In this document: positions 12,630-60,733 of the stretch, piece after piece
Position numbering within the stretch: position 1 is the stretch's first letter
Layout: each line of letters begins with the position of its first letter
Origin: Eunapius fragilis
Lineage: Eukaryota > Porifera > Demospongiae > Spongillida > Spongillidae
DNA length: 64,000 nt
Assembly: GCA_963681505.1 (NCBI GenBank)
Contig: OY811973.1
Span: 3,321,955 to 3,385,954 of the forward strand
Reading direction: 5' to 3'
Position numbers and translations under genes: made by a program
Notes under the pieces: model-generated
The model's input: the letters and a program-made list of their open reading frames with translations, nothing else
What the model was told of the DNA's origin: nothing
Database searches by the model: none

Positions 12630-12701
<72 letters not shown>

Positions 12702-12736
12702 ATCTCTCTCTCTCTCTCTCTCTCTCCTCTCTCCTC

Positions 12737-12834
<98 letters not shown>

Positions 12835-14118: not shown

Positions 14119-15958
14119 CATAACGCTTGCACAATTCTATTTATCTCTGTAATTATAGGCGAATGTCGCCATGGAACGCTTTAATATAACACTCCAATAC
14201 GTAATGATTACGTGATCAGTTCATGCTTTATTCATATATCCGATACCTGAAGATGTGCTTCCAGGAGATTCTAAAGCGATTGGTATAACTTGCGCTCTTT
14301 AAAACCATTCCTATCCCGAGTACTACTCTTCCGAGAAGAAGAAGAAGACGATGACGGAGGAGAATTGGTCTGCTGTGAACGAGAAACACTTAAAGCAAAC
14401 AGTTTTGAAGACTGGAACAAAACATTAAAATGACTGTCTTTGCCTTCTGGTTCGATAGCAAACTAAACTATCCGTTTCTGGGTACGCGAGTTATACGCGG
14501 GTCGCGGATTTCACGACACAGGTCAATTAGCCATAGGTCTGGTCCCCAGACTAGAAATTACTGGGAGTATATTGTGAAATGAGCAACTTGACTGATCTGT
14601 AGTCATGAATTTAACCCTGAGTGAGGGACGCAGCACACACACCTTCCTCGGAACGATGTCTCGCCACCTTGTGCCGGTAAGATAAAGCCTCCCAGTTCAT
14701 CCCTGTCAATAACACCTACCACGTGTGCTCACATTTTATCAACCTATCACTATAACGCCAGCAACGCCTCGACCAAAATTGGCTTCACCGTTTATAAACA
14801 TCAGTACATAAGCAAGGTCATGCAGTCTTGATGCTCCCAAACCAGCTCCATTTGGGTTCACTTGACCCGACGTCTAGTTATAATAACACACTGCAATGCT
14901 GATTTGTGTCAGGAGACGTCTGACCGCTGCACTCCGGAGGATCCTCCGTCTTCTCGTGCCCCTCGCACAGTTTCTGATGCAGGTTTTGTACTGGAGTCCA
15001 ATTACTCTACTCGGAGGACGCAGGCTGCCTATTGGTTCTCGGGAACTGTACGATGCCTACCGCGCAAACGTAGCGTATCAGTACTCGCTGCCTGTGATGA
15101 TTTTTACGATCGTTTTGGATGCCGTTTTCACCGTTCTGAGCTTCCTTCAGTTCGAAGGGGTAGCGACGTTCTTCGCGACGGGGACCGACTCACCTTACCT
15201 CCAAATTCTGCGCACTGTCGCTTGTCTCGTTTTAGTGTTACTTTCAATGTACCTTTCGAAGTATTTAAAGAAGATATGGCCTGTTGTTGCATTTTTGTCC
15301 ATCGTTACGCTCTCCCCGCACCTCATGTTCTACCTCGACGTGTGGACTGTCTTCCCGCCATACCTCCTAATGTTGGTGATGGAAACCATTCACTTCCAGC
15401 AGAGCTTTCTGATGTCGCTGGCGCTCTATGTCATCACGACGGTTGTTGTGCTAACGCAGCTCACGTATCCTGCGGCGGAGGTCGAAACAGTACAGAAAGT
15501 AAGCCGCCCGGTTTTTAAATGAATAATTTTAGGCACTGTAATTCATTCAGAACGAGAAGGGTGGGGGTAAGGGGGAATATATTGTATAACAAATAGCTTG
15601 GGGAACATGCAGTTAGTTTACTTCCCGTCATTTGATGCTGGGAATTATAATTTATGTGCCGTTTAGTGGTGTCATTGAGTGGTTAAGTCTTAACAATATG
15701 AATGAGTTAACATCACACGGGGGGGGGGGGGGGGGGGGGGGGGGGGACCTCATCGGATCAATCTTGGTTTCCAACTGATTTGTCAGTTACATATATCTGG
15801 TACAAAGTGCCAACATTTTTTGTAACAAAATCATTTGGGAATCAAGGATTGATTCATAATTCGACGAGTGTACATCAAGGCTCGAGCCGTCTTTACCAAA
15901 TGTTCTGCACGTTAGGCGCATGGGATAAATTTCTTGCCAACATTATACCATCATGCAA
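14119..15958 (+). repeat. Segmental duplication copy 2 (uninterrupted)
   Basis: Contains the 5' flank, intact exon 1 and part of intron 1 of the adenylyl cyclase gene, matching 8350-8977 plus 11011-11950. A block at ~14290-14430 unique to this copy has a frame ending REEEEDDDGGELVCCERETL and a stop shortly after, of unknown meaning. Confidence 0.8.
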
Positions 15959-18900
15959 AAAGATGTACCTAAAAAATTTTGCACGCGCGTGGACCGATGG
16001 CATTAAAGGATGTAACAGCAGACCATTTGCATGCATACATATTTTCCCCTCTTGTACGCTTCAGCCGAGCGTCCAACCTTAGATAAGGCATTTTCAGTTC
16101 TGAAACGTAGGGTTAAGCTGAACTGAACCATGCAGACATATAGGCCCTACTGGGCCCTATCTAATAATAATGAACGTACGTATATACACTGCGGCTTCTC
16201 ACCCTCGCTCCCTTTGCACCAGGTTACAATATGTCTGCTGATGCTAACAGTGGTTGCGATGATGGCTGTGGTTCACCTTCTGCTTGAACTGAAGAATAAA
16301 TCGGCTTTCTTGGCAATCCAGAAAAGCGTTGTCAAGCAACAGGACACCGAAAAGGAGCTTCGGAAACAGGTACATTGTTCACTGGGGAGGTTAGCACCTG
16401 CACCTGCAGGAGGTTAAAGATCCTTTTCAACTTAATATCACATTGCATGAGATTATAAAGTAGGGCATGCAAACGGTCTGTTGTCTGTTACCACGGAGGG
16501 GCAGACTTTTAATAATGTAACCACCATTGCAGGAAAGGCTACTTACTTCCATCCTGCCACAAGCAATTAATCTGATAAGCTCCATTAAAGAAAGCTTCCT
16601 AGCAAAAGAATTTGAAGGACAGTTCAGGAAATTGCACATTAGCAGAGAAGAGAACGTGAGGTACTTTGGATACATTTCTCCCTCCTCCCCTCCATTTCTC
16701 CCTCCTCCCCTCTATTTGTCCTGTGCTTCCTCTTCTACATACTGTCCTTCTTCGTTCCCTCCCTCTAATCTTTCTTTCCCTCTCTCCTTTGTCTCCCTCT
16801 CTCCTTTCTCTCCCCTCTCTGTATATGTCTTCCCTCCTCTTCCCTTTCCTCCATCCTCTCTCCCTCCCACTCCCCTTCCTTTTTCACCTCCCCTCGCTCT
16901 CTCCCTCTCTCCCATCACACACCAGTATTCTGTTTGCAGATATCATTGGCTTCACTGCCCTGAGTTCAAAGATCAGTGCTAGAGAATTGGTACACTTGCT
17001 GAACAGTCTATTTGCACAGTGTGATGCTCTGGCAGAGGTGAACGTTTGCACTCATCCACACAAGCACACACATAAATTCACACACACACCTACACTTTCA
17101 CACCTACATTCCAGTACACTGTACTGCCTCACATGTCAAACTATTTTCATACTTGCTACTTGATGAAATACACAAAGCCATTTTTTATAAGGGAAAGGTG
17201 TTACAGCCTTAGTGTGACTATAGACACCAATGTATATGCTTTATTTTCTCTACGACCAACTGAATTCATTGTCACAAAAGTACATCTTATTTGAATCAAT
17301 CATGACTTGCAGCATGGGCAGAGGCCTGGGGACTTGCAGCATGGGCCTCTAGAGGCCTGGGGACTTGCAGCATGGGCAGAGGCCTGGGTACTTGCCAGCA
17401 TGGGATAGATTACACCCGCTGTGAGCACAGCACGTATGTAGTACAAGGTGTGTTGTGTATGTGCGTGTGTGTGTGTGTGTATGTGTATGTATGTATGTGT
17501 GTGTGTATGTGTGTGTATGTATGTGTATGTGTGTGTGTGTGTGTGTGTGTATCTGTTGTGTGTGTGTGTCCAGCAGGTCTGATCCAACACAGCTCTCTCA
17601 ACAGCTCAACCATTGCCTTCGCATCAAGATCCTTGGAGACTGCTATTACTGCGTCTCTGGACTATATGACAGCAGGAAGGACCATGCTGCCTGCTGCGTC
17701 AAGATGGGTCTGGGGATGGTCAAACTGCTCAAGTGAGTGCAACCATTCAATGCTGTCGCAAAAGGTACAATTCCCCCCTCCACTCTTTTTTCTTCCATCC
17801 TCCCCTCTCCCTCCTCCTCCTTTCCTCCTTTCCCCTTTTCTCTTTTCCTCACTCCTTCCCTCTCTTCCCCCCCTCTGCCCCTCTCTTCCCTCACCCTCCC
17901 TCCCACTCTCCTTCCTTTCCTCTTTCACTCCCTTCCACCTCTTCCATCCTCCCTCCCACTCTTCCCTCTCTCCTCATTTCCCTAGAGATATGAGCGACCA
18001 GACCAACCACACTCTGGCAATGAGGATTGGCGTTCACACAGGTTCAGTCCTCTGTGGCCTGATTGGTCTCCACAAGTGGCAGTTTGACGTGTGGTCCAGC
18101 GATGTTGACATTGCACACCACATGGAGTCAGGGGGGTTGCCGGGGTGAGAATATCACAAGGGTTAACATCACTTTGGTCAAAAAGGCTTAACAGAGTGAT
18201 TTAAGATAGTGCGTTAAAGATAATAATGAGTTTAGAACATACATATATGTTGTTGCTTGGTCTTTGGGGGGGGGGGGGGGGGGGGGGCTTGCTAAGAGAG
18301 GCCTGCATTAATTTTTTAGGCACATCTTTCGCAGAAGGGTGCACATCACCAAGGCAACACTGGCTGCTCTCAATGGCTCTTACATAGTGGAGCCGGGGAA
18401 TGGACAACTGAGGGACACATATCTGAAGGCAAAGGGAGTGGAGACATACCTGGTAGTATGTCAGGATGGTGATGACATTGACTTAATACAGCTTCCTGAA
18501 AACAAGGTACAAACGTACTAGTCGCTTTCGTATTCCTTGCTGCAAAACACACTACCCACTTTCATATTCTGTATATTTCTGCATACTACAAGCAACACTA
18601 CCCACTTTCATATTCTGTATATTTCTTCATACTACAAACACTACCCACTTTCATATTCTGTATATTTCTTCATACTACAAACACTACCCACTTTCATATT
18701 CTGTATATTTCTTCATACTACAAACACTACCCACTTTCATATTCTGTATATTTCTGCATACTAGCTCCTTTTTGATGCTGGCTGCTTTTACGTTTTGGAT
18801 ATCACTTATATACCCAAAACCTTTGTCCTTCCCTTAACTTCCCTCCCATATGCAAGGACTGTGCCACCCCCGCACTCCTGCCATCTTGCGTCCTGCCCCA

Positions 18901-21900
18901 GCGGGACAACCTCTGCACCCCTTACCCCGTCTCCCCGGCCTTCAGCATGGCCTCCTCTAGGACTGTGTCTGCACTACACCCCTCTGCTGTTAACTGCCAG
19001 CTGCAGGTCGTGCGGTCCAGAGGCGGGTCCACCACGGTGAATTCCAACACAACGGAGTTGGAACTGTCCGCCAAATATCTCAAAGACATGTTGTCTGTTG
19101 CTGAAAATGTGGGTGTGGTTATCCTCGATAGGCTGCTTGTAACTGTTTTGCATTTTATCCCTACGGCCCTCAGAGCAACATTAATGCTGAACAGGATATG
19201 AGGTCTGTGGTAGTACGTTAGTCTGCACTTGGGTCCTGCATTAATCACATCATCCCAATCACATCATCCCAATCACATCATCCCAATTACATCATCCCAA
19301 TCACATCATCCCAATCCCATCATCCCAATCACATCATCCCAATCACATCATCCCAATCACATCATCCCAATTACATCATCCCAATCACATCATCCCAATC
19401 ACATCATCCCAATCACATCATCCCAATCACATCATCCCAATCACATCATCCCAATCACATCATCCCAATCTCAAAAGCAATCTTTTTGAGGAGAGCACCT
19501 TTCTAAGCAATATGCAAGAAGCCATGGCCAGGGGCTGTGATTACAGGTAAGGCTTGGTGATTTATGGATTGTTTTAAATGCTGGGCACATCCATGTAAGA
19601 TGGGGCATATCCATGTAAGATGGGGCACATCCATGTAAGATGGGGCACATCCATGTAAGATGGGGCACATCCATGTAAGATGGGGCACATCCATGTAAGA
19701 TGGGGCACATCCATGTAAGATGGGGCACATCCATGTAAGATGGGGCACATCTATGTAAGATGGGGCACATCCATGTAAGATGGGGCACATCCATGTAAGA
19801 TGGAGCACATCCATGTAAGATGGGGCACATCCATGTAAGATGGGGCACATCTATGTAAGATGGGGCACATCCATGTAAGATGGGGGACATCCATGTAAGA
19901 TGGGGCACATCTATGTAAGATGGGGCACATCCATGTAAGATGGGGCATATCCATGTAAGATGGGGCACATCCATGTAAGATGGGGCATATCCATGTAAGA
20001 TGGGGCACATCCATGTAAGATGGGGCATATCCATGTAAGATGGGGCACATCCATGTAAGATGGGGCACATCCATGTAAGATGGGGCACATCCATGTAAGA
20101 TGGGGCACATCCATGTAAGATGGGGCACATCCATGTAAGATGGGGCACATCCATGTAAGATGGGGCACATCCATGTAAGATGGGGCACATCCATGTAAGA
20201 TGGGGCACATCCATACAAGATGGGGCACATCCATGTAAGATGGGGCACATCCATGTAAGATGGGGCACATCCATACAAGATGGGGCACATCCATGTAAGA
20301 TGGGGCACATCCATGTAAGGTTGCTGTGCCATGCAATACATACACTATGGTTGTTGCTCACTGGATGAAATAGGGCACAATTACCAGCTACCATTTCTTT
20401 TGCCCCCCTCCCCCAACACACACACTCACACACAGTGAGGTTAAGAAGACTCTCAATCTACTTACCAATGAGTTAAAAAACAGCAAACTTGAAGCCAAAG
20501 TGTGTGCCACGTTTGCGTTTATCCCTGTCATGTTATCTTGTTCACTTCTGTCATGTTATCTTGTTCACTTCTGTCATGTTATCTTGTTCACTTCTGTCAT
20601 GTTATCTTGTTCACTTCTGTCATGTTATCTTGTTCACTTCTGTCATGTTATCTTGTTCACTTCTGTCATGTTATCTTGTTCACTTCTGTCATGTTATCTT
20701 GTTCACTTCTGTCATGTTATCTTGTTCACTTCTGTCATGTTATCTTATTCACTTCTGTCATGTTATCTTGTTCACTTCTGTCATGTTATCTTGTTCACTT
20801 CTGTCATGTTATCTTGTTCACTTCTGTCATGTTATCTTGTTCACTTCTGTCATGTTATCTTGTTCACTTCTGTCATGCTATCTTGTTCACTTCTGTCATG
20901 TTATCTTGTTCACTTCTGTCATGTTATCTTGTTCACTTCTGTCATGTTATCTTGTTCACTTCTGTCATGCTGTTATCTTGCCCAGTTTCAAAAGCTCCCA
21001 TTCAAGCGGCCATACATCTTCATATCAGTCCTGTTGGGCCTCCACGTGGTGTTCTACATATGCCAAATGATATTTGGACCCAGGAGGTATGCCCCAGTAT
21101 GGCTGCCAAATGGTATATGGACCCAGGAGGTATACCCCAGTATGGTTGCCAAATGGTATATGGACCCAGGAGGTATACCCCAGTATGGTTGCCAAATGGT
21201 ATATGGACCCAGGAGGTATACCCCAGTATGGTTGCCAAATGGTATATGGACCCAGGAGGTATACCCCAGTATGGCTGCCAAATGGTATATGGACCCAGGA
21301 GGTATACCCCAGTATGGTTGCCAAATGGTATATGTACCCAGGAGGTATACCCCAGTATAGTATATGGACCCAGGAGGTATACCCCAGTATGGTATATGGA
21401 CCCAGGAGGTATACCCCAGTATGGTATATGGACCCAGGAGGTATACCCCAGTATGGTATATGGACCCAGGAGGTATACCCCAGTATGGCTGCCAAATACC
21501 AGTATAATTTGGTGGTTATAGGAAAGCTATATAGTTCAATTCTGTGAAATGGGAGGCGGGATTTGGTGTGGCATTAATAAGAGTACATTGCTGTATGAAT
21601 GAATGAATGGCTGTAGATTGGAGGTGGATGACGAATTAATGTCATTGGCAGGTTTGTTTCTGTCCATGTGAGCTACATTCTTGGAGGTGGGGTCATTGTG
21701 CTGGCCCTGCTAGTGGCTTTGGCAGACAGTGTCAAGGTAAGTGACTGCATGTGCTGATGGTGTCAATGAGCAGCCATCTTTGAACATCATCAAGATGTGG
21801 AGAGGGTGGGATAGAGGTGGAGAGGGATAGAGATGGGGAGGGAGAGGTGGAGAGGGAGAGGGGGAGGGAGAGGTGGGGAGGGGGAGATGGGGAGGGAGAG

Positions 21901-22850
21901 GTGGGGAGGGGGAGATGGGGAGGGATAGAGGTGGGGAAGGAGAGGTGGGGAGGGAGAGGTGGGGAGGGGGAGATGGGGAGGGATAGAGGTGGGGAGGGAG
22001 AGGTGGGGAAAGAGAGGTGGGAAGGGATATTCTTGGCCAAGACTTTGTTGTCCAGTTGTGAATACTTTGTACTACCACAGCTTTGTAAATCTCCAATGGA
22101 CACCAACCTTTTTTTTTTGTATATTACTGCATTGAATTAATTAACTGAGACCACACCCACCAATATCTAATCATCAGGACCTCATTTTTAATTTTGAGGC
22201 TATAGTGGGCCTGGCATACTAATTTGTTAATTAAGTGTAGTTGTTAAAAGTTTATACTAAGTTTAGTTCATTAATAATTTTGTTATACAAGTGAAGCTAT
22301 GCATTTTTATCAAGCATAATGAATACTACCAATTACATAATATTGGCATTAAGTTTAGAGGAAAAAAAATAACCATGTTTTTTTATGAACTGTTTGATGC
22401 CACCCCCACTATGGTCAAAGTCCTGACCACTTTCATAGTATATGGTAGTTAATTAACAAAACATACCACTAATTTAACGCAATAGCATACAAAAATGATT
22501 TACCTACACGTGCTCGCTGAAATTTACTAATGGTATGGGGCAAAATGTTGGCCAATGGGATGGAGATGGAGAAGAGCAAAGAGGGGAGGGGAGAAGGTGG
22601 TCAGAGGGATGGTTGGGACGTACATTCGTGTGACGTATGTTTATCCTCTCTCTGTGTACATGACACATTTGCCTGTGCAATAAACATCCCTGCACCTTGG
22701 TGCATGTGTGCACAGTACCTGCAGTTCTCTCCCCTACTGCCCCTGAACAACACACTGAGGACAGTTCGATCAATGCGTGCTTTCACTTTCATGGTCCTCT
22801 GGCTCATTGCCACTTTCTCTAGTACAGTTGGACTGGTGAGTTTGAGCAGG

Positions 22851-22890
<40 letters not shown>

Positions 22891-22999
22891 CACACACACT
22901 ACACACACACACACACTACACACACACTACACACACACACTACACACACACACTACACACACACTACACTTACTAATGCATTCAAAAATGCGTACAATG

Positions 23000-23036
<37 letters not shown>

Positions 23037-23637
23037 GGCACACACACACACAATGGCACACACACACACAATGGCACACACACTTATGCTCACACGTGAT
23101 CAACAGATGCAGTGCACTGCTAACGCTCCATACTTGAAGCCATATCAGAAAGTCGATACCCAGAGTCCAAACTGCTATCTGGCCCACGTGAGTGATACAC
23201 CTTTGGATAAGGGCTTCGAACAATACACATACACCACACCAACATACACACACATACACACACATACACCACACCAACATACACACACATACACCACACC
23301 AACATACACACACATACACCACACCACAATACACACACATACATTACACCAACATACACACACATACACATACATTACACCACCATACACCATACCAACA
23401 TACACACACATACACCACACCAACACACACACATACACCAACATACACCACACACATACACATACACCACACCAACACACACACATACACCAACATACAC
23501 CACACACATACACATACACCACACCAACATACACATACACCACACCAACATACACCACACACATACATGCACACACATACACCACACACATCACTACCTT
23601 ACATTTGTACACATTCTCACATCACGCTTGCACACTT

Positions 23638-23691
<54 letters not shown>

Positions 23692-23880
23692 CTGCATCTG
23701 GCAGGTGATGGTACTCTCTGTGTTCATCATGATGCCATTCAATGACATACCACTCCTGGGACAGTTGATGTGTTCAGTGTTTGGCCTCTTCTTTGCCCTC
23801 TTCTCTTCTGTACTGGCATACCTGGACACATTTCTCATCATTTATGCCCGGTTCTATGGCAGTAAATACATGTGAGCAAC

Positions 23881-23960
<80 letters not shown>

Positions 23961-25646
23961 ATATACATACACACATACACACATACACACATACACACAT
24001 AACACACACACACACACATACATATACACACACACATAACACGCATGCACACACACACACACACAAGCATATTGTAGCAGGAGAATTTGCAATTTGTAGC
24101 AAGTGGTCACCTAGACAAAGGTCAATGATATTTTCACTTCTGACTGTTACTAAATGCTCATGCTATATCTTTGCATGTTGAATGACGAAATCATTTATTG
24201 CAGATTCCTCTAAATGTTCTGATGTTAATTAGGTAATAACTTGCCAAATCTAAATTATCCTAAATTATAAATGGGGCTTTAACTAAATGGGGCTTTTTTG
24301 GGGGGGGGGGGGGGGGGGGGGCTGAAAACTGTATTCATTGCTGACCTTACCATATTTGGCAATAAATATACCTTTCAGCCCCCCAGAATGCCTCTTCCTA
24401 GGCTTTAACGTCTTAATTTTACTTCAGTGCTTTATAACTGTTTAATAGCGAGTCCAGTTTTAGATAATTGGTAAAATAACAGCAGTCTATCAAAAAATTT
24501 GAAAAGTGAACTGTAAGCCTGCTTTTTTAGAACACGTATTATATGGAAACACTACCAGGAGGTACGGGCACTCACCAAATATCGTCTTCCTTTTTTTAAT
24601 GAATGGTATAGGGAGCGTGCCCTCATAGACTACATCTTTGTCCTGTTCATCTTACCTATAAGCATCACTGGAGCAGCCATCCTTTCCAAGCAGGTAAAGG
24701 CACACTCAGATGCAATCCCTGTATGATGTGTTGAAACATAGTCTACAGCAGTGTTGCTCTCAAATATGTTCTAATTATTGCTCTCTTCCAAATATTGCTC
24801 TCCTTCAAATACACATGCAACCCTCTAATTGTTGCTCTCAAATGTATTCACTACTCTATTTGTTGCCCTCCATTACCTCTGAAGTACCAGCTGAGCAGAC
24901 GACACAGCTTCCTTCAAGCTCAAGAGGTCGGGGCAAAACCATATGATTAAAATCCTACAGCAGATGGAATTTTTATTTTTATTTTTATTTTCAATGCTAA
25001 AAACGACATAGAGATGTGAAGAAGAACAGAAGGTTGAAAAGCTAAAGAAATCGAACCTAGTGATCCTAAAGAACCTGCTGCCAAGCCACGTGTTGGAGTA
25101 CTTTCTCAACGCAGATGAAAGTGCAGTACGTCACCCTTTCAACATGCACACATGCACACATAAGCATACATGCACACATAAGCATACATCCACCATATCG
25201 TGAGGCACATGTGTGACATTCCCCTCCCCCTCACAACGTCTTTGTCAAAGGCTATCAACACATAAGATTCCCCCCCCCCCCTCCCCCCTCATTCAGTTGC
25301 CTAGGTCATGCGGTAACTATATTATTACTCTCCAAATGTAGCCCACCTGTCATGTCTTACCATTATCTTCCCACTCCATGTGCATTAACCCCCAAGGGGC
25401 TCTACTACCAGAGTCATGAGGAGGTTGGAGTAATGTTTGCATCCATTCATGGATTTGAAGAATTCTATGAAGAACTCACCATCAATAACCAGGGCATTGA
25501 GTGCCTGAGGCTCTTGAACGAAATATTTGCTGACTTTGACCAGCTGTTAAAAGAGGAACGCTTCCAGTGCCTGGAGAAGATAAAGACCACAGGGTGTGTC
25601 TACTTGGTGGCCTCAGGTCTCAAGACCAAGGTAGGCAGTGTAGGCA

Positions 25647-25682
<36 letters not shown>

Positions 25683-28071
25683 ATGTATGTATGTATGTAT
25701 GTATGTATGTATGTATGTGCATGTATGTATGTATGTGTGTGTGTATGTATGTATGTATGTATGTATGCATGTATGTATGTATGTGATGTATGTGTGTATG
25801 TGTGTATGTGTGTATGTATGTGTGTATGTATGTGTGTATGTGTGTATGTGTGTGTGTATATGTGTGTGTATATGTGTGTATGTGTGTACATGTGAGGGGA
25901 GGTGTGGCCACACGTTGCACCAATCAGCTGTACATGTTCCGCCTTCCCCCTAGAACTCAGGCATGCGTTGGAGGCACTTGAGGGCTCTGGCAGAGTTCTC
26001 CTTTGCCCTGCAAGAGCAGCTGGACCTCATCAACAAAAATTCATTTAACGACTTCAAACTGAGAGTCGGTGAGCTCCAATTGGAGGTGCAGTCTGTATAT
26101 ATAGCAGCGTACTGTCTCTATGTCGCACGTCTGCCAATTGGTATTACAACGCTCTCTCATAATACCTTGGCTCCTCCCCCTGCCCCGCCCATCCTCAGGG
26201 ATCAGCCATGGTCCTGTAGTGGCAGGTGTGATAGGTGCAAAGAAGCCACAGTACGACATATGGGGAGACACCGTCAACCTGGCCAGCAGGATGGACACCA
26301 CAGGGGAGGTTGGGAAGACACAGGTCCTGCTGTCCATACACTACAGGGGAGGTTGGGAGGACACAGGTCCTGTCCATACACCACAGGGGAGGTTGGGAGG
26401 ACACAGGTCCTGTTCATACACTACAGGGGAGGTTGAGAAGACACAGGTCCTGTCTATACACCACAGGGGAGGTTGGGAAGACACAGGTCCTGTCCATACA
26501 CCACAGGGGAGGTTGGGAAGACACAGGTCCTGTCCATACACTACAGGGGAGGTTGGGAGGACACAGGTCCTGTCCATACACTACAGGGGAGGTTGGGAAG
26601 ACACAGGTCCTGTACATACACCACAGGGGGTGTTGGGAAGACACAGGTCCTGTCCATACACCACAGGGGAGGTTGGGAGGACACAGGTCCTGTCTATACA
26701 CTACAGGGGAGGTTGGGAGGACACAGGTCCTGTTCATACCCCCTTGCAGTGTGCATGGTTATTGCCCCACCCCCCACCCACGTGCCAACATTTCCATACC
26801 TCCTCCCCATCCCCCTCTCACTACCCCACACCCTCACCTCACCCTCCCTACCTACCCCTCTTCTACCTGCTCCCTCCTACCTTCATCCCTTTCTACCCCT
26901 CCCACCTACCCTCCCCTACCTACTCCTCCCACCTTCACCCTCCCCTACCTACTCCACCTTCACCCTCCCCTACCTACTCCTTCACCCTCCCCTACCTACT
27001 CCACCTTCACCCTCCCCTACCTACTCCTCCTTCACCCTCCCTACCTACTCCACCTTCACCCTCCCCTACCTACTCCTCTTTCACCCTCCCCTACCTACTC
27101 CTCCTTCACCCTCCCCTACCTACTCCACCTTCACCCTCCCCTACCTACTCCACCTTCACCCTCCCCTACTTACTCCTCCTTCACCCTCCCCTACTTACTC
27201 CTCCTTCACCCTCCCCTACCTACTCCCCCTTCACCCTCCCCTACCTACTCCACCTTCACCCTCCCCTACCTACTCCTTCACCCTCCCCTACCTACTCCAC
27301 CTTCACCTTCCCCTACCTACTCCACCTTCACCCTCCCCTACCTACTCCACCTTCACCCTCCCCTACCTACTCCCCCTTCACCCTCCCCTACCTACTCCAC
27401 CTTCACCCTCCCCTACCTACTCCCCCTTCACCCTCCCCTACCTACTCCACCTTCACCCTCCCCTGCCTACTCCACCTTCACCCTGCCCTACCTACTCCAC
27501 CTTCACCCTCCCCTACCTACTCCTCCTTCACCCCCTACCTACTCCACCTTCACCCTCCCCTACCTACTCCTCCTTCACCCTCCCCTACCTACTCCACCTT
27601 CACCCTCCCCTACCTACTCCTCCTTCACCCTCCCCTACCTACTCCTCCTTCACCCTCCCCTACCTACTCCACCTTCACCCCCTACCTACTCCACCTTCAC
27701 CCTCCCCTACCTACTCCTCCTTCACCCTCCCCTACCTACTCCACCTTCACCCTCCCCTACCTACTCCTCCTTCACCCTCCCCTACCTACTCCACCTTCAC
27801 CCTCCCCTACCTACTCCACCTTCACCCTCCCCTACCTACTCCACCTTCACCCTCCCCTACCTACTCCTCCTTCACCCTCCCCTACCTACTCCACCTTCAC
27901 CCTCCCTTACTTACTCCTCCCCTCTCCACACAAACACAGGTAGTACATGAGACGCAGGTACTGTTGGCGGCACAGGGATATGGCTTTGAGTACAGAGGAC
28001 CTGTTTATGTGAAGGGGAAGGGAAGCCTTACCACACACTACCTTGTCCAGAAGGCTGGACATAAGCAATGA
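14896..28071 (+). CDS. ADCY: Membrane adenylyl cyclase (class III), 21 exons, 1085 aa
   Basis: Makes cAMP from ATP at the plasma membrane. Exons: 14896-15498, 16223-16369, 16533-16660, 16926-17037, 17605-17732, 17986-18144, 18335-18506, 18857-19108, 19491-19546, 20436-20499, 20986-21086, 21652-21736, 22716-22835, 23107-23187, 23705-23871, 24531-24693, 25012-25125, 25397-25630, 25954-26068, 26199-26323, 27940-28071; all phases agree. Order: six-helix bundle (exons 1-2), C1 catalytic domain ([43 protein letters not shown]), second helical bundle (exons 11-16), C2 domain ([45 protein letters not shown]). Both C1 metal-binding Asp, the C2 adenine-site Lys and Asp, and the C2 Asn/Arg of NLASRM are present, so it should be active. 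Length is typical (~1080-1100). C1 resembles the ADCY1/8 group most, but subtype is not assigned. Least certain: exon 9 acceptor and exon 5 acceptor. Confidence 0.9.
16675..16925 (+). repeat. Pyrimidine-rich tract, cyclase intron 3
   Basis: CT/CCT-rich sequence running up to the 3' splice site at 16925, in effect an enlarged polypyrimidine tract. A similar tract at 17765-17985 precedes exon 6. Confidence 0.7.
17455..17570 (+). repeat. (TG)n/(TATG)n microsatellite, cyclase intron 4
   Basis: TG repeats with TATG interruptions. Just upstream (17313-17400) is a short array of 'ggcctggggacttgcagcat' units. Confidence 0.9.
18555..18765 (+). repeat. ~42-bp minisatellite, cyclase intron 7
   Basis: Five copies of a unit containing 'cactaccc' and 'tttcatattctgtatatttc', between exons 7 and 8. 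Confidence 0.9.
19243..19472 (+). repeat. 14-bp minisatellite, cyclase intron 8
   Basis: About 16 copies of 'aatcacatcatccc' with occasional single-base changes, ending just before the short exon 9. Confidence 0.95.
19587..20320 (+). repeat. 20-bp minisatellite (~36 copies), cyclase intron 9
   Basis: The unit 'tggggcacatccatgtaaga' is repeated almost without change; variants are cacat/catat, ccat/ctat and two 'ccatacaaga' units 60 bp apart. The sense strand of each unit carries GTAAGA, a splice-donor-like hexamer. As 60 is a multiple of 3, all frames stay open and give spurious long ORFs on the minus strand. Confidence 0.97.
20526..20980 (+). repeat. 23-bp minisatellite abutting a 3' splice site, cyclase intron 10
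   Basis: About 20 copies of 'tgttatcttgttcacttctg' plus 'tca'. The last unit runs into the acceptor 'ttatcttgcccag' of exon 11 at 20985, so the array is a repeated pyrimidine-rich acceptor-side sequence. Confidence 0.95.
21066..21495 (+). repeat. Splice-donor-containing minisatellite, cyclase intron 11
   Basis: Eleven copies of ACCCAGGAG|GTATRC. The first is the end of exon 11 plus its 5' splice site (21078-21092). The next six follow at 43-bp spacing (21121, 21164, 21207, 21250, 21293, 21336) and the last four at 31-bp spacing (21367, 21398, 21429, 21460), where 'gttgccaaatgg' has been lost from the unit. Confidence 0.95.
21796..22028 (+). repeat. GA-rich minisatellite, cyclase intron 12
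   Basis: Irregular 11- to 23-bp units of 'ggtggggagggagagg' type. G-rich on the sense strand. Confidence 0.85.
22850..23087 (+). repeat. (CA)n microsatellites, cyclase intron 13
   Basis: CA runs with 'ctacacacaca' and 'aatggcacacaca' interruptions, filling most of the intron. Confidence 0.9.
23220..23690 (+). repeat. CA-rich array, cyclase intron 14
   Basis: Imperfect units of 'caccacaccaacatacacac', then a pure (CA)n run of ~55 bp ending shortly before the exon 15 acceptor. Confidence 0.9.
23884..24064 (+). repeat. (CA)n microsatellite, cyclase intron 15
   Basis: Starts 12 bp after the donor of exon 15 and continues as pure, then interrupted, CA repeats. Confidence 0.95.
25649..25890 (+). 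repeat. (GT)n/(GTAT)n array directly after a donor, cyclase intron 18
   Basis: The donor AAG|gtaggcagtgtaggcagtgt passes directly into GT and GTAT repeats; G/T-rich on the sense strand. Confidence 0.95.
26300..26740 (+). repeat. Splice-donor-containing 40-bp minisatellite, cyclase intron 20
   Basis: Eleven copies of 'GGGGAGGTTGGGAAGACACAG|gtcctg' type (longest quoted part shortened). The first copy is the coding end of exon 20 (TTGEVGKTQ) and its donor at 26323. The next 'acacaggtcctg' copies start at 26361 and then every 40 bp to 26721. Confidence 0.95.
26800..27935 (+). repeat. 24-bp pyrimidine array before the last cyclase exon
   Basis: About 45 units of 'ctacctactccaccttcacc' plus 'ctcc', with point and length variants, ending at the acceptor of the terminal exon (27939). 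A/C/T only over most of its length. Confidence 0.95.
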
Positions 28072-29310
28072 CATCAAAAGTGAATGTGTGAATAACGAAA
28101 ATGCTGCAAGCGTGTGCAACTTTATTCATTTTAATCGAACTTAAATATTTTGCATTTATCAGTTGGTTGTAATTAGATGTATAAACTGAAGTGTAGTGGC
28201 TATGGTGTTCACTTATCATCAATACATGAGTCACAGTTATTTTATTCATAAGTTGTTCAATCATCAGTAGTAGTGGCATTTAGTAATCTTAGACCAATGC
28301 ACACAGTAATCTTAAACCAATGCACACACATTGCTTCAGTAATCTTAGACCAATGCACACAGTAATCTTAAACCAATGCACACACATTGCTTCAGTAATC
28401 TTAGACCAATGCACACAGTAATCTTAAACCAATGCACACAGTAATCTTAGACCAATGCACACAGTAATCTTAAACCAATGCACACAGTAATCTTAAACCA
28501 AAGCACACACATTGCTTCACTAATCTTAATGCACACACATTGCTTCAGTAATCTTAGACTGATGCACAAACATTGCTTTCAGTAATCTTAGACTGATGCA
28601 CACACATTGCTTCAGTAATCTTAATGCACACACATTGCTTCAGCAATGCTTCAGTAATCTTAGACCAATGCACAAACATTGCTTTCAGTAATCTTAGACA
28701 GATGGACACACATTGCTTCAGTAATCTCAGACCAATGCACACACATACTCCAAGTCTTTGGAGAATGTCAGGTGGCATGGCGTGTGGAGGTGTTACCAGT
28801 GGGTGGAACCCATGAGCCAATTGGACATTTCTTACCCCTCACACAACAACTCTCCAAGTTAACTAACTGATTGGAGGGCCTCACCAGCAAAGTGCATATG
28901 TGCATATACACCACATCTTCTTTATGCAGTAGTGTCGTTTGTACTGAACATACCCAATATGTATATGAGGTGGGGAAGAAACCAAAGTGGAAGTGTTCCA
29001 TCCCTACATATCCCTGCCAAGGTTCTGTAAATTGTACATAATGCATTTATCAATGGGTTCTCCTCCACCGGGGGGGGGGGGGGGGGGGTGACTAATTTTT
29101 TACCCCAGACCTGGTGTATTGTTACCTCATAAAAATTGCAAAAATCAGCATGTGTTTGTTGAGAGGATGTGATGCTAGAAGGGTGGGAGATTTGAAAGCC
29201 ACCACACTTGTCTCGTCTGGGGTGTAAGCGGGGAAACCTCTTCTGTTTAATGTATAAGCTGTGATGCTACATATTAAGAAATCGGACTGGGCACGAGGTT
29301 CTGGGCTGTC
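28072..29310. other. Cyclase 3' flank and DNAJC27 5' flank
   Basis: No gene. Contains the 28290-28745 minisatellite, a poly-G tract at 29071-29088 and otherwise unremarkable sequence. The cyclase 3' UTR should start at 28072; no clear AATAAA was identified. Confidence 0.5.
28290..28745 (+). repeat. ~33-bp minisatellite
   Basis: Irregular units of 'cagtaatcttagaccaatgc' and 'acacacattgctt', some with one half deleted, in the cyclase 3' region. Confidence 0.9.
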
Positions 29311-30290
29311 ATGGAAACGGTTTGTGCGGACGAACACTTAAGGACCCTACGAATCAAAGTGATTAGCATGGGGGCGGCGGAGGCTGGAAAGGTAGAGTGG
29401 GACCTGACCCTTAAAGTGCTGTAAGGAGAGATAAGGCCTATACCCACAGAGTTGCCTTATTAAACGATTTTGCGAGAAGCGGTTCGTCTCGAAGTACATG
29501 GCGACACTCGGAATCGACTTCGGCGTAACAAAGTGTGTGCTGCAACTTTCCGCTGTTTGCATTCAAGAATAAAATTCTTGTTCGTAGAGTTAAAGTAGGC
29601 GACAGGGACGTTAAAGTTGACATATTTGATATGGCGGGACAACCTTTCTTTGCAGAGGTTTGAATTTTATATTGAGCGCGGTAAAAAAAAACACTCACAC
29701 CTACTTATATTTCCGCCTAGATCAGGTTCGCAACGAATTCTACAAAGACACGCAGGGGGCTATCCTTGTGTATGACGTCAGCAACAGGGCCAGCTTTGAG
29801 GCCATGAGCAGCTGGCTAGGGGAGATGAAGGATCACGTGACCGACCCCCGCGGATTGGACTCTGTGGTCATCGCTGTGTGTGGAAACAAAGTGAGTCACT
29901 CAAGATGGAGACTTGGGAGGCCACTTACTTTTATTATTGAGTGCAGTTGGCTATATAGTTTGATGTTACAAAATTGCAATATGATTTTCTCTTACTCTCT
30001 CTCTCTCGCAGATCGATCAGGGGAAGAGGAAAGTGGAGCAACCAGAAGGACAGCTGTGGGCGGAGTCTAGAGGATTTCTTTACTATGAGACATCGGCACA
30101 TACGGGAACAAACGTAGCAGAGATGTTTCAGGCCCTGTTTGCCGCCACCGTTGCCATGGTGACAAAAGGAGAGAAGCCCAGTGTGTGCATGGGGAGCAAG
30201 TACACGCCTGAGCAGCTGTCCCTAGTACAGAGGATCCAAGGCTGCCGGGACAGCCACGACATCCTGGGGGTGCCAATGATATGTAGCAGG

Positions 30291-30377
<87 letters not shown>

Positions 30378-30898
30378 CTTTGTATTCACACTTAAGGGTG
30401 CTATGACAGCACTTTGTATTACCTAAGGGTGCTATGACAGCACTTTGTATTCCCACCTAAGGGTGCTATGACAGCACTTTGTATTACCTAAGGGTGCTAC
30501 AACCGCACTTTATATTACCTAAGTGTGCTATGACAGCACTTTTTTACCTAAGGGTGCTACGACAGCACTTTGCATGTGACATTGGGAGAAAAGGTGAAGC
30601 AATGGAACTTGGTATAATAGGACATTGCATGGTCTAAAATTATATTATTTTTGACATCATCATTGAAAGAATAAACATAAGATATCTCCTTCACCTTCCT
30701 CCCTCCTCCCATTTTCACTCGCTCTCTCCTTCCCCTCCACTTTCTCCCTTCCTCCCCCTCCCTCACAGGGATGAGGTAAACAGAGCTTACAAACAGCTTG
30801 CCATTCTCCTCCATCCTGACAAGAACCAGGCTCCAGGGAGTGACGAGGCATTTAAGACCATTGCCAGAGCCAGAGAAGAGCTCCTGAGAAACTGTTGA
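29311..30898 (+). CDS. DNAJC27: DNAJC27 (RBJ): Rab-like GTPase with C-terminal J domain
   Basis: Exons: 29311-29391, 29450-29532, 29588-29657, 29726-29890, 30012-30289, 30769-30898; 268 aa, phases consistent (human protein 273 aa). GTPase motifs: P-loop SMGAAEAGKS across the exon 1/2 junction, G3 FDMAGQPFF (not the usual DxxGQE-type switch, as in vertebrate DNAJC27), G4 NKID across the exon 4/5 junction, G5 ETSAHTG. The J domain (ILGVPMICSRDEVNRAYKQL, then LLHPDKN) has the HPD tripeptide needed to stimulate Hsp70. Known: vertebrate DNAJC27 binds MEK and promotes its nuclear retention, and it lacks a prenylation motif; here too the C terminus (LLRNC) gives no CAAX box. The start ATG is the only one preceding the P-loop exon in frame. 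Confidence 0.93.
30290..30575 (+). repeat. (GT)n at the donor, then ~31-bp minisatellite, DNAJC27 intron 5
   Basis: The donor CAG|gtaggt runs directly into ~80 bp of GT. It is followed by about six units of 'taagggtgctatgacagcac'. Confidence 0.95.
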
Positions 30899-31932
30899 TA
30901 CCTTTCACCACTCCTCCTCCTCCCCTCCTCCTCCTCCCCTCCTCCTCCTCCCCTCCTCCTCCTCCTCCTCCTCCCCTCCTCCTTCTCCTTCCCCTCCTCC
31001 TCCTCCCCTCCTCCTCCTCCCTTTCCCTCTGTCATCCCAAACTATACATTCTTGAGCATTGCTTAACTCAAACAGGTATTATTATTAACTCAACCTCCAC
31101 ATGTGTGCTACTTGCACACGTGAGCATGTCTATCCAATTCACAGATGTGGGGGTGGGGGTGGGCTGAGGTTCAAACATGGCAATAGTTTAATGAATGCCA
31201 CACAGGTCTCCTAGCAATACCAACAAATGCACCAATATCTGTGTATGATGCAGTGCACCACCTCAAGCATGGGCACACCTCTCACCCTACAAGGACCCCC
31301 TCCCCAGCCTTCTCTGAGGATTTCTCCCCAGTACATCCCCAGACGTCAACAAGGCCCTCCTCCCCAATATATCTCCTTCACTGAGGAGTCTTGAACAATG
31401 CCCTCCTCCCCAGTACATCCCCAGCCTTCAACAATGCCCTCCTCCCTAGTACATCCCCAGCCTTCAACAAAGCCCTCCTCCCCAGTACATCCCCAGCCTT
31501 CAACAAGGCCCTCCTCCCCCAGTGCATCACAGTGGCCTTCTCCCCAGGCTGACACAAACAGTCCGGAGGACTGTGAGTGCTAGAAGAAGAAATTAGGGCT
31601 TAGGGCAGGTTAGGGGGGGCCGAAGGCCCACTACATCCTTCAACTTTTCACCCCCTCTCCGAATCCGCTCTCAAATTGCACCCGTCCCTCCCTCCCTCCC
31701 CGACACTCTTCATTGAAACCCACTAACTCCCCCTCTCCTTAATAAACGCCATCTTGGCTATGGGGAGGCGCCTGCGGCGCCATACTCTAGCTTCTATGAC
31801 AAGGACCTCCACACAAAGCTAGCTAAATGAGGCCCCACCCACCTGTGGTTAATGAACTTAGAATGGAAGTAAAAAGCATAAGGATGAATGGAAGAACTGT
31901 GTGTGCATAAGTGTGCATGTGTGAGTTGTGTG

Positions 31933-31986
<54 letters not shown>

Positions 31987-32769: not shown

Positions 32770-32800
<31 letters not shown>

Positions 32801-33059
32801 CTATTGCAGCAGCAGCTGGCTGAGAGGACTAATCCTCTCTTCCTTTGTGATCTAAGATAGATATTACGTGGCTTCACACATCTCACAGAAGGACCTCCTA
32901 CTGCCATTGGAGGTGTGGGGTAATGCTATTATCTGCCATTTGCAAAACCCACATAGGTGATAAAATTAGCCATCCTTAAGATAAGCTGGAGATTCATACT
33001 GATAATGAGGCCCCACCTCATCAACTGATGTGGGCACAAAGGCTGGTGATTGAGGTCTA

Positions 33060-33121
<62 letters not shown>

Positions 33122-33650: not shown

Positions 33651-36600
33651 ATGACTGCAATCATCAAGTACATGTACGACACCTGCGGCACGGTAAGCGG
33701 ACGTAACGCATCGTTCAACAGTCCCCCATTCTCGTCCGCGTAGCGTGTATGTACTCGCCTTGCCGGCGCTCTTTTTTTTTTTTTTTTTCTTTTTCTTTGC
33801 ACTGCTCTCTGACTAACCTTCTTTCGTTCCAGCCGGATATCTCGATTCTCCAACAAGAGCATGCCATGCGCGAGCTGCAAATTAAATGTATCGAGGTAAG
33901 AAAGCAAATAAACGCGTCTACCTCGGCACTGACATGTTTTACGCGAACTAGGAATCCTTTAGCGCTTTGCCCTTCACTTTGCCATTATTCCATCATTTTT
34001 TTTTTTTTTAATGCTTTTTTTTTCCCTTTTCTCTCTTTGCTCAGCAATCAATTGGACAATTCATAGACTACGTATCGAGACTGGCGCAAGACCAGCAAGG
34101 CTCGCGGCTGATCCAGGCCAAGCTTGAAGAGGCGACGACACGGGAGAGAGACTGCATACTGGTCGGGGTTGCGCCCCGTGCGCTTGAACTCATGTGCAAT
34201 CCCTTCGGAAACTACGTCATCCAGAAGTTGCTAGAGTTCGGGACCCCCGTGCAGCGCAGGGGCGTGGTCGAGCTCATGCGGCGGAATGTGGTGACCCTCG
34301 CTTCTCACACGTACGGATGCCGCGTGGTGCAGTCTGCAGTGCAGAACCTACCGCGACACATGCAGGTAGGTGCGGGCGTGATAGCTAATTAAAAATCCAT
34401 GCTTAACATTGAACATTTGTGGGGGGGGGGGGTTGCGTTCTCCCTCAAGAGAAAGCAATAAATTGTGCGCCATAAATTCAATCACAGATACAATGTATTT
34501 TATAATCGTAGATAAGGAAGTAGTTTTAGTCTTGGTGTTGGGGGTGGGGGGTATAAAGTGTGAAGACTGCATGCTAATAAGGTAATGTTCTTAGCAGGTG
34601 AAAGGTTTCCAGGCCTGTGGCAAAATGTTATTTTCTGTTTGCAGAAACCACCCCCCCCCTCACCCCCTCACCACTACATAATTCAACCACCCCTCTCCTT
34701 GCCCCAACAGGCTGTGCTCCTATCAGAGTTGGAGGGTTGCATAGTGAACCTGATCAAGGATGAAAATGGCAACCATGTGGTCCAGAAGTGCGTGGAGTAC
34801 ATTGACTCCTCCCTCCTGGACCCCCTGGTCAACGCCCTCCAGGGTCAGGTGCCGGACCTCTGCATGCACCCTTTTGGATGCCGCGTCATCCAACGTGTGC
34901 TGGAACACTGCAACCAGACCCAGGTCACCTCAGTCCTGAAGGAGATACACCTTCAGTCCAAGCAGCTGATAAAGGTATTAACCTTTTTTTTTAAATAAAT
35001 TTTTTAAAATAGTTTTTTTAATCGTGGCGTGCAGCATCACCCAAATACAATTAGGCAACTTGTGGGTCTGATTATTTTGTACTTCTGGGTGTGACGTCAC
35101 GTACTAGCAGGTCCACTGTCTCTTGCCTGTACACTGCAAACATTACCTGGTGTGTGTTTCAGTTTGCTTTTTGACTTGTAAGGAACAAACGCTATAATTA
35201 AGCTGCGTCGTGTCCGTCTAGAACAAATAATCAGATATCATGAAAGTTGCCTATTGCAACACTGGCTTTTCTTCAAAAGCCTACTCTGTTAGGCTCTATG
35301 GGGGCAATGTGATTGGGCATAGACCTCATTCTCCCGTGTCACTTAAGTTTTCGAATGCTGTTCTCTCAGTGTTCGGTTTGTTACCCACAAGTAGTTCGAA
35401 CTTAATTTGTCATTGAGATTTCTGGTTGCATGTGCAGACTCATGTGTCCCCTGGTCATTTGTTATCCCAGGTACGTGTAGTTAAGCATGTTTCATAGGCA
35501 TAGACAGGGAAAGGCAAACAGCCCCCCTACTACGTAGATAAAGGAGGGGGCAGCCCCCCTCCCACGTAGATAAAGGAGGGGGGAAAGGCAAGGGTTCTAC
35601 AGCCCCTAGATAAAGGAGGGGGGAAAGGCAAACAGCCTCCCTACCACGTAGATAAAGGAGGGGGGGAAAGGCAAACAGCCCCCCCTACCACCAGGTTTTT
35701 TTTTCCAATATTATGATTATAGTTTCCAATTGTCTCAGGTCTTCCTGATCTCATGACATGCTTTTGAGCAATGAATTCCATTAGATTATCAACCCTCCAG
35801 TGTGAAATAGTATGCTCTTGTGCAAGCTAACAGCCAGTGGCCAAATGTCATTATTGTTCTTCCAACTTAATGTGTCGCAGGATCAGTATGGAAACTATGT
35901 GATTCAGTATGTTTTAATGCATGGAAGGCCTGGGGACAAGACAAAAATTATCGGACAGCTCAAGGGGCGTGTCACTTCTCTTGCCCAGCACAAGTTTGCC
36001 AGGTGAGATTAAGTGCCAGTACTGAAATGTATGCAGAGGTGTGTGTGTGTGTATGTATGTGTGCATGTGTGTGTGTATATGTGTGTGTACGTGTGTGTTT
36101 TTATGGTTAGGATTGGCCTCAGTACCGGTACATGAAAGTGGGAACAATTCGTGTGCATATATTTTGATGTACTTAGCTTAGTTTATGTACAAAACATGAA
36201 CTGAAGCTGAACTCTTAGTTTGCTTCTAACCTTATGGTTCTGTTTTTTTATTTAAATTTTAATAATAGAAACTGTTGCATGAGAGAGCATTAAATAAAAT
36301 CTGCTTAACTCTCGCTCCCTTCCAACAGCAATGTGGTAGAGAAGGCATTAGAGTGTGCTTCCATATCTGAACGACGCTCTCTGGTGTCTGAGATTATTGA
36401 AGATGACCAGTAAGTCGTGTTGGTAACTAAGTCAAGGGGCACTACGTAATTGGTTTTTATCAAATTCTTGTTTGTTGATTAAATAATATTTTTGTAACAC
36501 TGTTCCCACTTCAATACATTTTGACATTCGTCAGTTTTGTGCTCAACCCATGTATGGTACATGTATTACCACATGACTGGCCCCATCCATACGTGGCATT

Positions 36601-37034
36601 ACCACATGACTGGCCCCACCCATATGTGGCATTACCACATGACTGGCCCCACCCATATGTGGCATTACCACGTGACTGGCCCCACCCATATGTGGCATTA
36701 CCACATGACTGACCCCACCCATATGTGGCATTACCACATGAGTGGGACTTAGATGCAGACACATGCAACCACACCCCCACCCAATGTAAAAATTAAAAAT
36801 AAAAAGCATGCTAACTCATATAATGTCAACCCCTACAGGACCCTGTTCAACCTCACCAAACACCAGTTTGGAAACTACGTCCTGCAGAGGACCCTGGAGT
36901 CTGTAGACGCAGGGACACAGCGACTTCTCCTCTCAAGGCTCTACCCTCACCTCGGTACTCTGAAGAGGTACAACTATGCGAGATACGTCATTGAAAAGCT
37001 GGAGAAGGTACAGAATCTCCTCCCTCTCCAGTAA
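33651..37034 (+). CDS. PUM: Pumilio-family RNA-binding protein, short form, 8 PUF repeats
   Basis: Exons: 33651-33692, 33833-33895, 34045-34365, 34711-34974, 35881-36002, 36329-36409, 36839-37034; 362 aa. The eight repeats have base-contacting five-residue motifs SRLIQ, NYVIQ, CRVVQ, NHVVQ, CRVIQ, NYVIQ, SNVVE, NYVLQ, in order. This is the same code as human PUM1/2 (SRxxQ, NYxxQ, CRxxQ, NHxxQ, CRxxQ, NYxxQ, SNxxE, NYxxQ). By the established PUF code it should bind UGUANAUA in 3' UTRs and repress or destabilise those mRNAs. Only ~50 residues precede repeat 1, against several hundred disordered residues in fly and vertebrate Pumilio; an upstream exon could be missing. After the last repeat the frame reads [11 protein letters not shown] and stops, but GTACAG after GAGAAG could be a donor to one more exon. 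Confidence 0.88.
35515..35695 (+). repeat. Minisatellite, Pumilio intron 4
   Basis: Four to five units of 'gataaaggaggggggaaagg' plus 'caaacagccccccta', lying near the 3' end of the intron. Confidence 0.85.
36568..36745 (+). repeat. 33-bp minisatellite, Pumilio intron 6
   Basis: About five and a half units of 'accacatgactggccccacc' plus 'catatgtggcatt', with exact 33-bp spacing (for example 36601 and 36634). Confidence 0.95.
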
Positions 37035-39481: not shown

Positions 39482-40641
39482 ATGCAGTCCGCCCACCCCA
39501 GTCCATGCGTCCAGGTCGGCTCCGACGACCGTGAGGATGTCTACCTTCCGTCGGACGACACCTTTCTTCTTATGGACGCGTTAGAAAAAGACTTCCCGTT
39601 TCTGGACGCACTGAGGTAAGTTGACGGCACGTTAGACTTCCGGTGCATAATTACCGCTGTAACGACCACACCCCGCGGAAAATACAAATTACATGTACAG
39701 ACCTTCAATATGCGTTGAGGTGGGTTCCGGCTCCGGAGCTGTGATTACATTTCTGGCCGCCCACTTTGGCAGCGGAGCATTTTATCTGTGAGCTGGCAGC
39801 GCAGACACATCCACACGCACTTGAAAAATTTATGCATCATTTTTCGTCTTTCTGAATATTTGTACGTCTCCTTCTGTGAAGAGCCACTGACGTCAACTCC
39901 AAAGCATGTCGCTGCACCGGCCGTACGCTACTGCACAATTCAGTTCGGACGTACGACTGTGTTAACGAGGACTTGGTAAGGAAGCAATGTAGGAGGCGGG
40001 CGGCATGCTATCGACGCCCGCCGTTGGACGTCATGCGGGCAGCCCGATGCTGCTAAGCTACTCACTTGCAATCCCTGTACGTGCAGGTCAACGCCTTGCA
40101 ACCGAGGCTGCGAAACAGCGTCGACGTACTGATATTCAATCCACCCTACGTGCCGACGCCCTCCGAAGAGGTTTGGCGACCAAACAAAGTACGCCTTCCT
40201 TGTGTCTCTCGTTTCAATGCGCACCGGGTATGGTTACCGTTATTTTCCTGGGGTCAGGTAGGCGGTATCGAAGCCTCTTGGGCTGGCGGGACTTGCGGAA
40301 GAGAGGTGAGCGGACCGGTCGGCTCCTCAGTATAAAAATTGCTAAATGGTTCTTATTCCGTATGATGGCATTTTGCAATGCAGGTGACAGACCGTCTTTT
40401 GCCAGATGTCAGTGCATTGTTATCTCGTCGCGGTGCGCTGTATCTCGTGACTGTTCCAGAAAACAGACCATGTTGGTTTCTCCTTTCGGTGTTAGGAAAA
40501 AAATGTAATTAAGTCCTTCTCGCAGCCGATATCATGGACTTTTTGGGCGCACAAGGCCTAAGCTCAGAGACGGTTATGTCAAGGAAAGCTCACAACGAGA
40601 GACTTGGCGTCGTGAGATTCTTCAACCGCGCATTTTTATGA
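39482..40641 (+). CDS. N6AMT1: N6AMT1/HEMK2 glutamine methyltransferase
   Basis: Exons: 39482-39615, 39701-39787, 39882-39975, 40087-40170, 40258-40305, 40384-40471, 40526-40641; 216 aa (human 214), phases consistent. N-terminal VYLPSDDTFLLMDALE matches VYEPAEDTFLLLDALE. The SAM-binding motif is VEVGSGSGAV, catalytic motif IV is FNPPY, then EASWAGGTCGRE. Known: with TRMT112 it methylates the Gln of the GGQ motif of release factor eRF1; DNA-N6-adenine activity has been claimed and disputed. Start ATG at 39482 is first in frame and sits 55 bp from the divergent SWSAP1 start. All introns are under 120 bp, in contrast to RFC1 next door. The gene ends 132 bp before the RFC1 start. Confidence 0.93.
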
Positions 40642-40773
40642 AATTCGGTTGTTTTTGTTACGCATGCGTAATAGCACACGTGCATTTGACAAAAATTTGA
40701 TTGTTGCGTACTTGCCGCTCAGAAAAGTGGGTTGGTTGTTACACCCTAATGAAGTTGTCGTTTAATTTTAAAC

Positions 40774-60733
<19,960 letters not shown>

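Follow-up and report, generated by a model that had tools for sequence, protein, structure and literature searches.

Tandem arrays in a stretch of the Eunapius fragilis genome are concentrated at the 5′ ends of introns, with a moderate polarity of composition

New introns can arise when sequence containing AGGT is duplicated in tandem, in which case the copies carry an AG|GT junction and both splice sites lie inside the duplicate. Such a gain, by tandem genomic duplication, has been described for an RdRp gene of potato (PMC4974935). Two further systems concern repeats or simple motifs near splice sites: (i) human genes in segmental duplications contain variable minisatellites, with units of ~30 bp on average, some of which sit at exon–intron boundaries with altered splicing (PMC2812944), and (ii) G-quadruplex motifs are ~3-fold enriched near splice junctions, more so on the non-template strand, according to a study with RNA-seq from mouse and human neurons (PMC9065059). 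An initial annotation of the 64,000 nucleotides of E. fragilis DNA analysed here (the window) proposed that intron repeats are polarised with the gene, G/T-rich ones clustering at 5′ splice sites (donors) and C/T-rich ones at 3′ splice sites (acceptors), and knew of no earlier description of minisatellites seeded by donors as a genome-wide class. The claim to novelty is too strong in view of the human boundary minisatellites as outlined in PMC2812944, and a search of literature listings, weak evidence in itself, brought up no account of sponge arrays lying close to donors.

The window belongs to assembly odEunFrag1.1 (GCA_963681505.1), which is described as 218.91 Mb in 23 chromosomes plus a 28.5-kb mitochondrial genome, with a longest scaffold of 24.99 Mb, a scaffold N50 of 9.93 Mb, 26,614 protein-coding genes and a BUSCO completeness of only 60% (PMC12616128). 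Reading the sequence by hand, together with a check of open frames, gave five plus-strand genes with 53 introns, and the expected Pfam domains were found in all five (Table 1). The gene with Ras and DnaJ domains is presumably DNAJC27-like, and the methyltransferase gene presumably N6AMT1/HemK2-like. Two automatic approaches were dropped: an ab initio gene finder, whose codon signal was too weak at 0.18 bits per codon (46 of 53 donors found, 179 predicted overall), and the joining of exon frames, which got the donor and the acceptor right for 30 of 53 introns. Splice sites were placed through sequence reading instead. The cyclase model aligns with adenylate cyclase type 8 (8buz), without a gap at donor 26324 and with a two-residue difference directly after donor 25631, while the RFC1 protein aligns gaplessly with human RFC1 (6vvo) at donors 54111, 56011 and 58399, all of which lie inside arrays. 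Junctions beyond the aligned stretches, including donors 21087 and 42996, are model only and some may be off. The 8buz alignment suggests that the acceptor of cyclase intron 6 would be 18335 rather than 18320; this intron is array-free and the counts are unchanged. RFC1 may have another 5′ exon, at about 40774; it was left out, together with a CA array (40954–41003) that precedes the acceptor at ~41042.

Several features of these genes were noticed in passing. Upstream of the cyclase gene, plus-strand frames at 8827–8976 and ~10900–11535 resemble its first-exon region, so that by eye the gene looks partly duplicated, and a TC array (12616–12856) comes after the second of them. In RFC1, inverted repeats resembling, by eye, small non-autonomous transposons lie in intron 8 (54990–55200) and intron 9 (56930–57180), and a GGA/AGG microsatellite in a coding exon (55887–55925) encodes a glycine run that falls in a gap of the aligned human protein.

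Another 26 introns were modelled outside the window, making a sample of 79. Fourteen lie in the next 30 kb downstream, in a plus-strand alpha/beta-hydrolase gene and, on the minus strand, in a short gene and three EF-hand paralogs that resemble peflin; a further 30 kb held no multi-exon gene that could be modelled. The other 12 come from three of ten random 20-kb loci, picked for likely gene frames, other likely frames there not being counted. One of these picks was biased, since the TPH-domain gene (TCHP) was spotted because its frame entered a GT array. Pfam domains agree with the labels of the hydrolase, of one EF-hand copy, of TCHP and of the Mon2 C-terminus (ARFGEF), and gave no support for that of the outside gene called CCDC43. 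Two outside introns were left out: one in the hydrolase gene with an unplaceable (possibly GC) donor, and one upstream of the Mon2 exon pair without a placed donor, in which a GT array ends ~64 bp before the acceptor. Arrays were counted when they were at least 25 bp long and scored at least 50. The sample is small and mostly from one neighbourhood, and its models are hand-made. At random locus R18 (L018/L019), a gene that is presumably vitellogenin-like (VTG) has eight modelled introns (seven of 55–98 bp and one of 445 bp), none with an array above the cut-offs; array load thus varies from gene to gene. On the minus strand downstream (L032 to L035), four very similar single-frame copies of 781–794 aa resemble, by eye, class C receptors, and 27-bp minisatellites adjoin two of the four copies.

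Table 1. Genes, arrays and paralogs discussed in the text (window positions unless a downstream locus is named)
Feature	Position	Strand	Remarks
Adenylyl cyclase gene	14896..28071	+	22 exons, 21 introns, 1082 aa; open model; Guanylate_cyc domain in two stretches
DNAJC27-like gene	29311..30898	+	6 exons; Ras and DnaJ domains (Pfam)
Pumilio-type gene	33651..37034	+	7 exons; 8 PUF repeats (Pfam)
N6AMT1/HemK2-like methyltransferase gene	39572..40641	+	7 exons, six array-free introns; MTS domain (Pfam); start uncertain
RFC1 gene	41044..60733	+	16 exons, 1226 aa; RFC1 C-terminal, BRCT and AAA domains (Pfam)
Minisatellite, 43/32 bp	21061..21488	+	first copy holds 26 exon bases and donor 21087
Minisatellite, 40 bp	26295..26739	+	first copy holds 29 exon bases and donor 26324; gapless junction in 8buz alignment
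Minisatellite, 29 bp	42995..43312	+	begins 1 bp before donor 42996
Minisatellite, 31/60 bp	54102..54789	+	begins 9 bp before donor 54111
Minisatellite, 28/56 bp	55966..56119	+	begins 45 bp before donor 56011 when described with the 56-bp unit, 15 bp before it with the 28-bp unit
Minisatellite, 23 bp	58398..58590	+	begins 1 bp before donor 58399
GT/GTAT array	25647..25888	+	16 bp after donor 25631
(GT)41 array	30294..30376	+	4 bp after donor 30290
GT array	53107..53818	+	6 bp after donor 53101
C/T-rich minisatellite, 25 bp	26908..27917	+	ends 22 bp before acceptor (intron end 27939)
CT array	57606..57820	+	ends 31 bp before acceptor (intron end 57851)
CA array, counterexample	22852..23083	+	16 bp after donor 22836
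CA array, counterexample	23223..23688	+	from 35 bp after donor 23188 to 1 bp before acceptor
CA array, counterexample	23885..24065	+	13 bp after donor 23872
C/T-rich array, counterexample	43763..44049	+	20 bp after donor 43743, 241 bp before acceptor
Three tandem peflin-like EF-hand paralogs	L031 3300–10000 and L032 450–4700 (downstream region)	minus	86–95% identity in 150-bp exon ends

The stronger pattern in this sample is the position of the arrays on the donor side rather than their composition. Arrays are present in 45 of the 79 modelled introns (51 arrays in 34 of the 53 window introns), and the median distance from the donor to the start of the first array is 31 bp. The first array lies within 50 bp of the donor in 28 of the 45, against 16.0–19.3 expected, with P between 0 of 5000 permutations and 0.0004. 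The window alone gives 21 of 34 (12.7–15.4 expected; P from 0 of 3000 to 0.010, according to how much is left free at the acceptor), and the introns outside give 7 of 11 (3.4–5.0 expected; P = 0.012, 0.024 and 0.069 for margins of 0, 25 and 45 bases). On the acceptor side, both sets together have 12 of 45 introns with an array ending within 50 bp (7.2–16.1 expected). The contrast is sharpest in the 24 informative introns, that is, those with at least 200 bp outside arrays: 13 are donor-proximal, where uniform placement predicts 3.5 (P = 2.6e-6), and one is acceptor-proximal. A uniform spread within introns, which would speak against the initial annotation, is therefore not what the arrays of the 79 introns display, their concentration being at the 5′ end. 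Along the arrays themselves, no clear gradient of age was seen in 30 rows, of which some overlap in describing a single array; in the 18 rows starting within 60 bp of a donor, divergence was by hand count greater away from the donor in 11, smaller in five and neither in two.

Some arrays contain the donor itself. At least nine exon bases lie inside an array at the donor in four of the 45 array-bearing introns (26, 29, 9 and 45 bases) and at the acceptor in none, and the array in RFC1 intron 8 holds nine further potential donors, spread over all three frames, whose scores come within 1 bit of the authentic donor's. More broadly, an array starts at or before donor position +6 in 11 of the 45 introns and one reaches the last seven intron bases in a single intron. 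The 11 are not an excess, since 9.3–14.1 are expected when starts are allowed up to 30 bp inside the exon.

Composition follows position less tightly. All eight splice sites singled out by the initial annotation do have an array in the same intron, 4–31 bp away except for one at 106 bp. Its three donors with GT arrays (25630, 30289 and 53100, modelled here at 25631, 30290 and 53101) are confirmed, with the qualification that at donor 25631 a 9-bp GTAGGCAGT repeat begins at the donor, ahead of the GT-type array. Its five acceptors with C/T repeats stand only in part: in the introns ending at 16925, 17985, 20985, 27939 and 57851 the last array stops 106, 12, 16, 22 and 31 bp earlier, respectively, but two of the five are not acceptor-specific, since the arrays of the intron ending at 16925 begin 12 bp after its donor and a single array fills the intron ending at 20985 except for 25 bp on the donor side and 16 bp on the acceptor side. 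Exceptions to the polarity rule are as plain as its examples: besides the counterexamples of Table 1, an A/C-rich array lies 16 bp downstream of donor 25126, a C/T-rich array 12 bp downstream of donor 16661, and a GT array ends 35 bp upstream of acceptor 17604.

For a wider comparison, an array was called donor-proximal when within 50 bp of the donor and closer to it than to the acceptor (acceptor-proximal likewise), and G/T-rich at a content of 0.7 or more. G/T-rich arrays make up 13 of 25 donor-proximal arrays, four A/C-rich and two C/T-rich exceptions being among the 25, compared with 9 of the remaining 44 (Fisher p = 0.014), while C/T-rich ones make up 4 of 10 acceptor-proximal arrays against 13 of 59 others (p = 0.25). 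When relative position is set against composition in all 69 arrays, 51 from the window and 18 from elsewhere, rho is −0.35 for G+T (p = 0.003) and +0.28 for C+T (p = 0.021). The window alone gives −0.36 (p = 0.010) and +0.30 (p = 0.034), and the 18 outside arrays have the same signs without significance (p = 0.13 and 0.31). Dinucleotide-type arrays within 50 bp of donors were counted by hand as eight GT and four CA (exact test p = 0.39). Array-free introns have a weaker, parallel gradient, with G+T at 0.57 after donors and 0.51 before acceptors, and C+T at 0.50 and 0.66. Since plain introns share it, the polarity of composition is a moderate tendency, partly common to ordinary intron composition, and not a strict rule. 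What survives of the window-wide rule is a moderate lean of G/T-rich arrays towards donors; its strict form fails on the CA, A/C-rich and C/T-rich arrays at donors and the GT array near an acceptor, and the enrichment of C/T at acceptors is not significant.

How could such a 5′ bias arise? The explanation we lean towards, as somewhat the likelier, is that tandem arrays of many unrelated units expand where splicing leaves the intron free. The median length of the 34 array-free introns is 90.5 bp, and in an intron that short a few bases at the start and a large part of the final ~45 would be constrained, so that an array could expand only close to the donor. Later insertions would then fall mostly in the larger gap 3′ of the array, which would remain near the 5′ end of what has become a long intron. 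The bias of composition might reflect tolerance at each end, GT repeats extending a donor that contains GT and the pyrimidine tract accepting C/T, and arrays with exon bases might be the tail of the same distribution of starts. A model built post hoc along these lines (a short intron first, an array in its free part, random insertions after, with assumed margins of 6, 45 and 25 bases) gives, for the 24 informative introns, 12.0, 14.1 or 14.9 donor-proximal cases with three insertion sizes and 0.9–1.8 acceptor-proximal ones, where 13 and 1 are observed. With 12–15 donor-proximal cases predicted in this way, no special seeding would be required; under the model a special process is unnecessary, yet could exist. 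Of the two alternatives in the initial annotation, seeding by splice signals or arrays tolerated only where they mimic the local signal, the second fares better. Two observations sit less easily with the model. A strict 45-base margin is contradicted by the 12 of 45 introns with an array within 50 bp of the acceptor, where 7.2 are expected (P = 0.004), and the model does not account for the preference of G/T-rich arrays for donors where it exceeds the weak gradient that plain introns have. The donor effect persists in weaker form once G/T-rich arrays are set aside (6 of 18 informative introns donor-proximal, 2.1 expected, P = 0.013; none acceptor-proximal).

The 13 donor-proximal cases and the surplus of G/T-rich arrays near donors could also be produced if the 5′ splice site itself, through slippage on its GT-rich sequence, an R-loop or a DNA break arising in transcription, started duplications whatever the length of the intron, an account that we consider unlikely although it deserves attention. 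It gains from GT arrays that lie 0–6 bp after five donors (30290 and 53101 in the window; ABHD1, ABHD5 and TCHP2 outside) and from the peflin-like paralogs, which have different arrays at one shared intron, none spanning the exon–intron junction. In two of the three, unrelated arrays lie 26 and 17 bp past the shared donor, and in the third a C run, at 88 bp, comes first; unrelated arrays at one donor suggest that these are young and recurrent. We had considered these copies as proof of an intron that was long before its arrays, and rejected them as such: at E 1e-3 the match between copies 1 and 2 is confined to the 150-bp exon ends and ~20 bp of intron, and for the remaining pairs the intron contributes nothing more than short matches of low complexity or on the reverse strand, from which the earlier length cannot be inferred. 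An inverted-repeat end similar, by eye, to those of RFC1 is present in one peflin-like intron. Against mutation directed by the donor stand the equally good fit of the short-intron model, the lack of an excess of donor-overlapping arrays, and the CA, CT and mixed units that follow donors without an obvious seed in them. Nor do donor-like motifs 0–50 bp off array edges lie more often towards arrays (20) than away from them (24) in 200 kb of random sequence, a weak test with an unspecific motif in regions that look gene-poor; in the window the count was 37 towards and 25 away. Seeding of duplication by splice signals, as first proposed, is thus not shown, the gradient of array-free introns adding to these points. 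The more specific statement, that in this sponge the 5′ splice site is a mutational origin where transcription or the site's own sequence starts duplications up to ~50 bp downstream, with unrelated arrays recurring at given donors and occasionally taking along a copy of the exon end and donor, we find more doubtful still.

Less probable again is selection for composition, whereby GT repeats would be kept as splicing aids at donors and CT repeats at acceptors: it could account for the G/T enrichment near donors and for the two correlations over 69 arrays, but it must contend with the CA, A/C-rich and C/T-rich arrays that sit at donors, the non-significance of C/T enrichment at acceptors and the gradient shared by plain introns. 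Chance, or biased noticing in a small sample drawn mostly from one neighbourhood, is in our estimate slightly weaker than that; it has on its side that the data are the window and 26 other introns, with TCHP picked through its GT array and a composition rule that is weak, and against it the P value for the 24 informative introns and the similar donor fractions in the window and outside. Finally, intron gain by tandem duplication of AGGT-containing sequence, at an early stage or in reverse, can be given hardly any credence and is not supported, for although six arrays contain the donor and units such as the 40-bp one carry CAG|GT, an intron gained in this way should have both sites within the duplicate, and none of the six reaches its acceptor, their ends lying 130, 293 (163 with an adjoining array), 358, 984, 1198 and 1200 bp short.

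If the 5′ bias holds genome-wide, it would (i) provide a simple account, open to test, of the growth of short introns and (ii) warn annotators of donors repeated many times within an array, as in RFC1 intron 8. Should the bias persist in introns that were previously long, it would instead suggest that a process of mutation is linked to the 5′ splice site. As for known systems, the sponge arrays resemble the human minisatellites described in PMC2812944 in having units at an exon–intron junction, where they could change the splice pattern. They differ from that account, which concerns recent human paralogs, transcripts and proposed novel introns, in that they mostly begin just inside the intron, give no sign of new introns and are known from DNA alone. 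Like the copies in tandem-duplication intron gain, as outlined for potato (PMC4974935), theirs contain an AG|GT junction; unlike them, the sponge arrays end well short of the acceptor. With the G-quadruplexes of PMC9065059, a differing class of motif, they have in common that they are strand-biased simple sequence near splice junctions.
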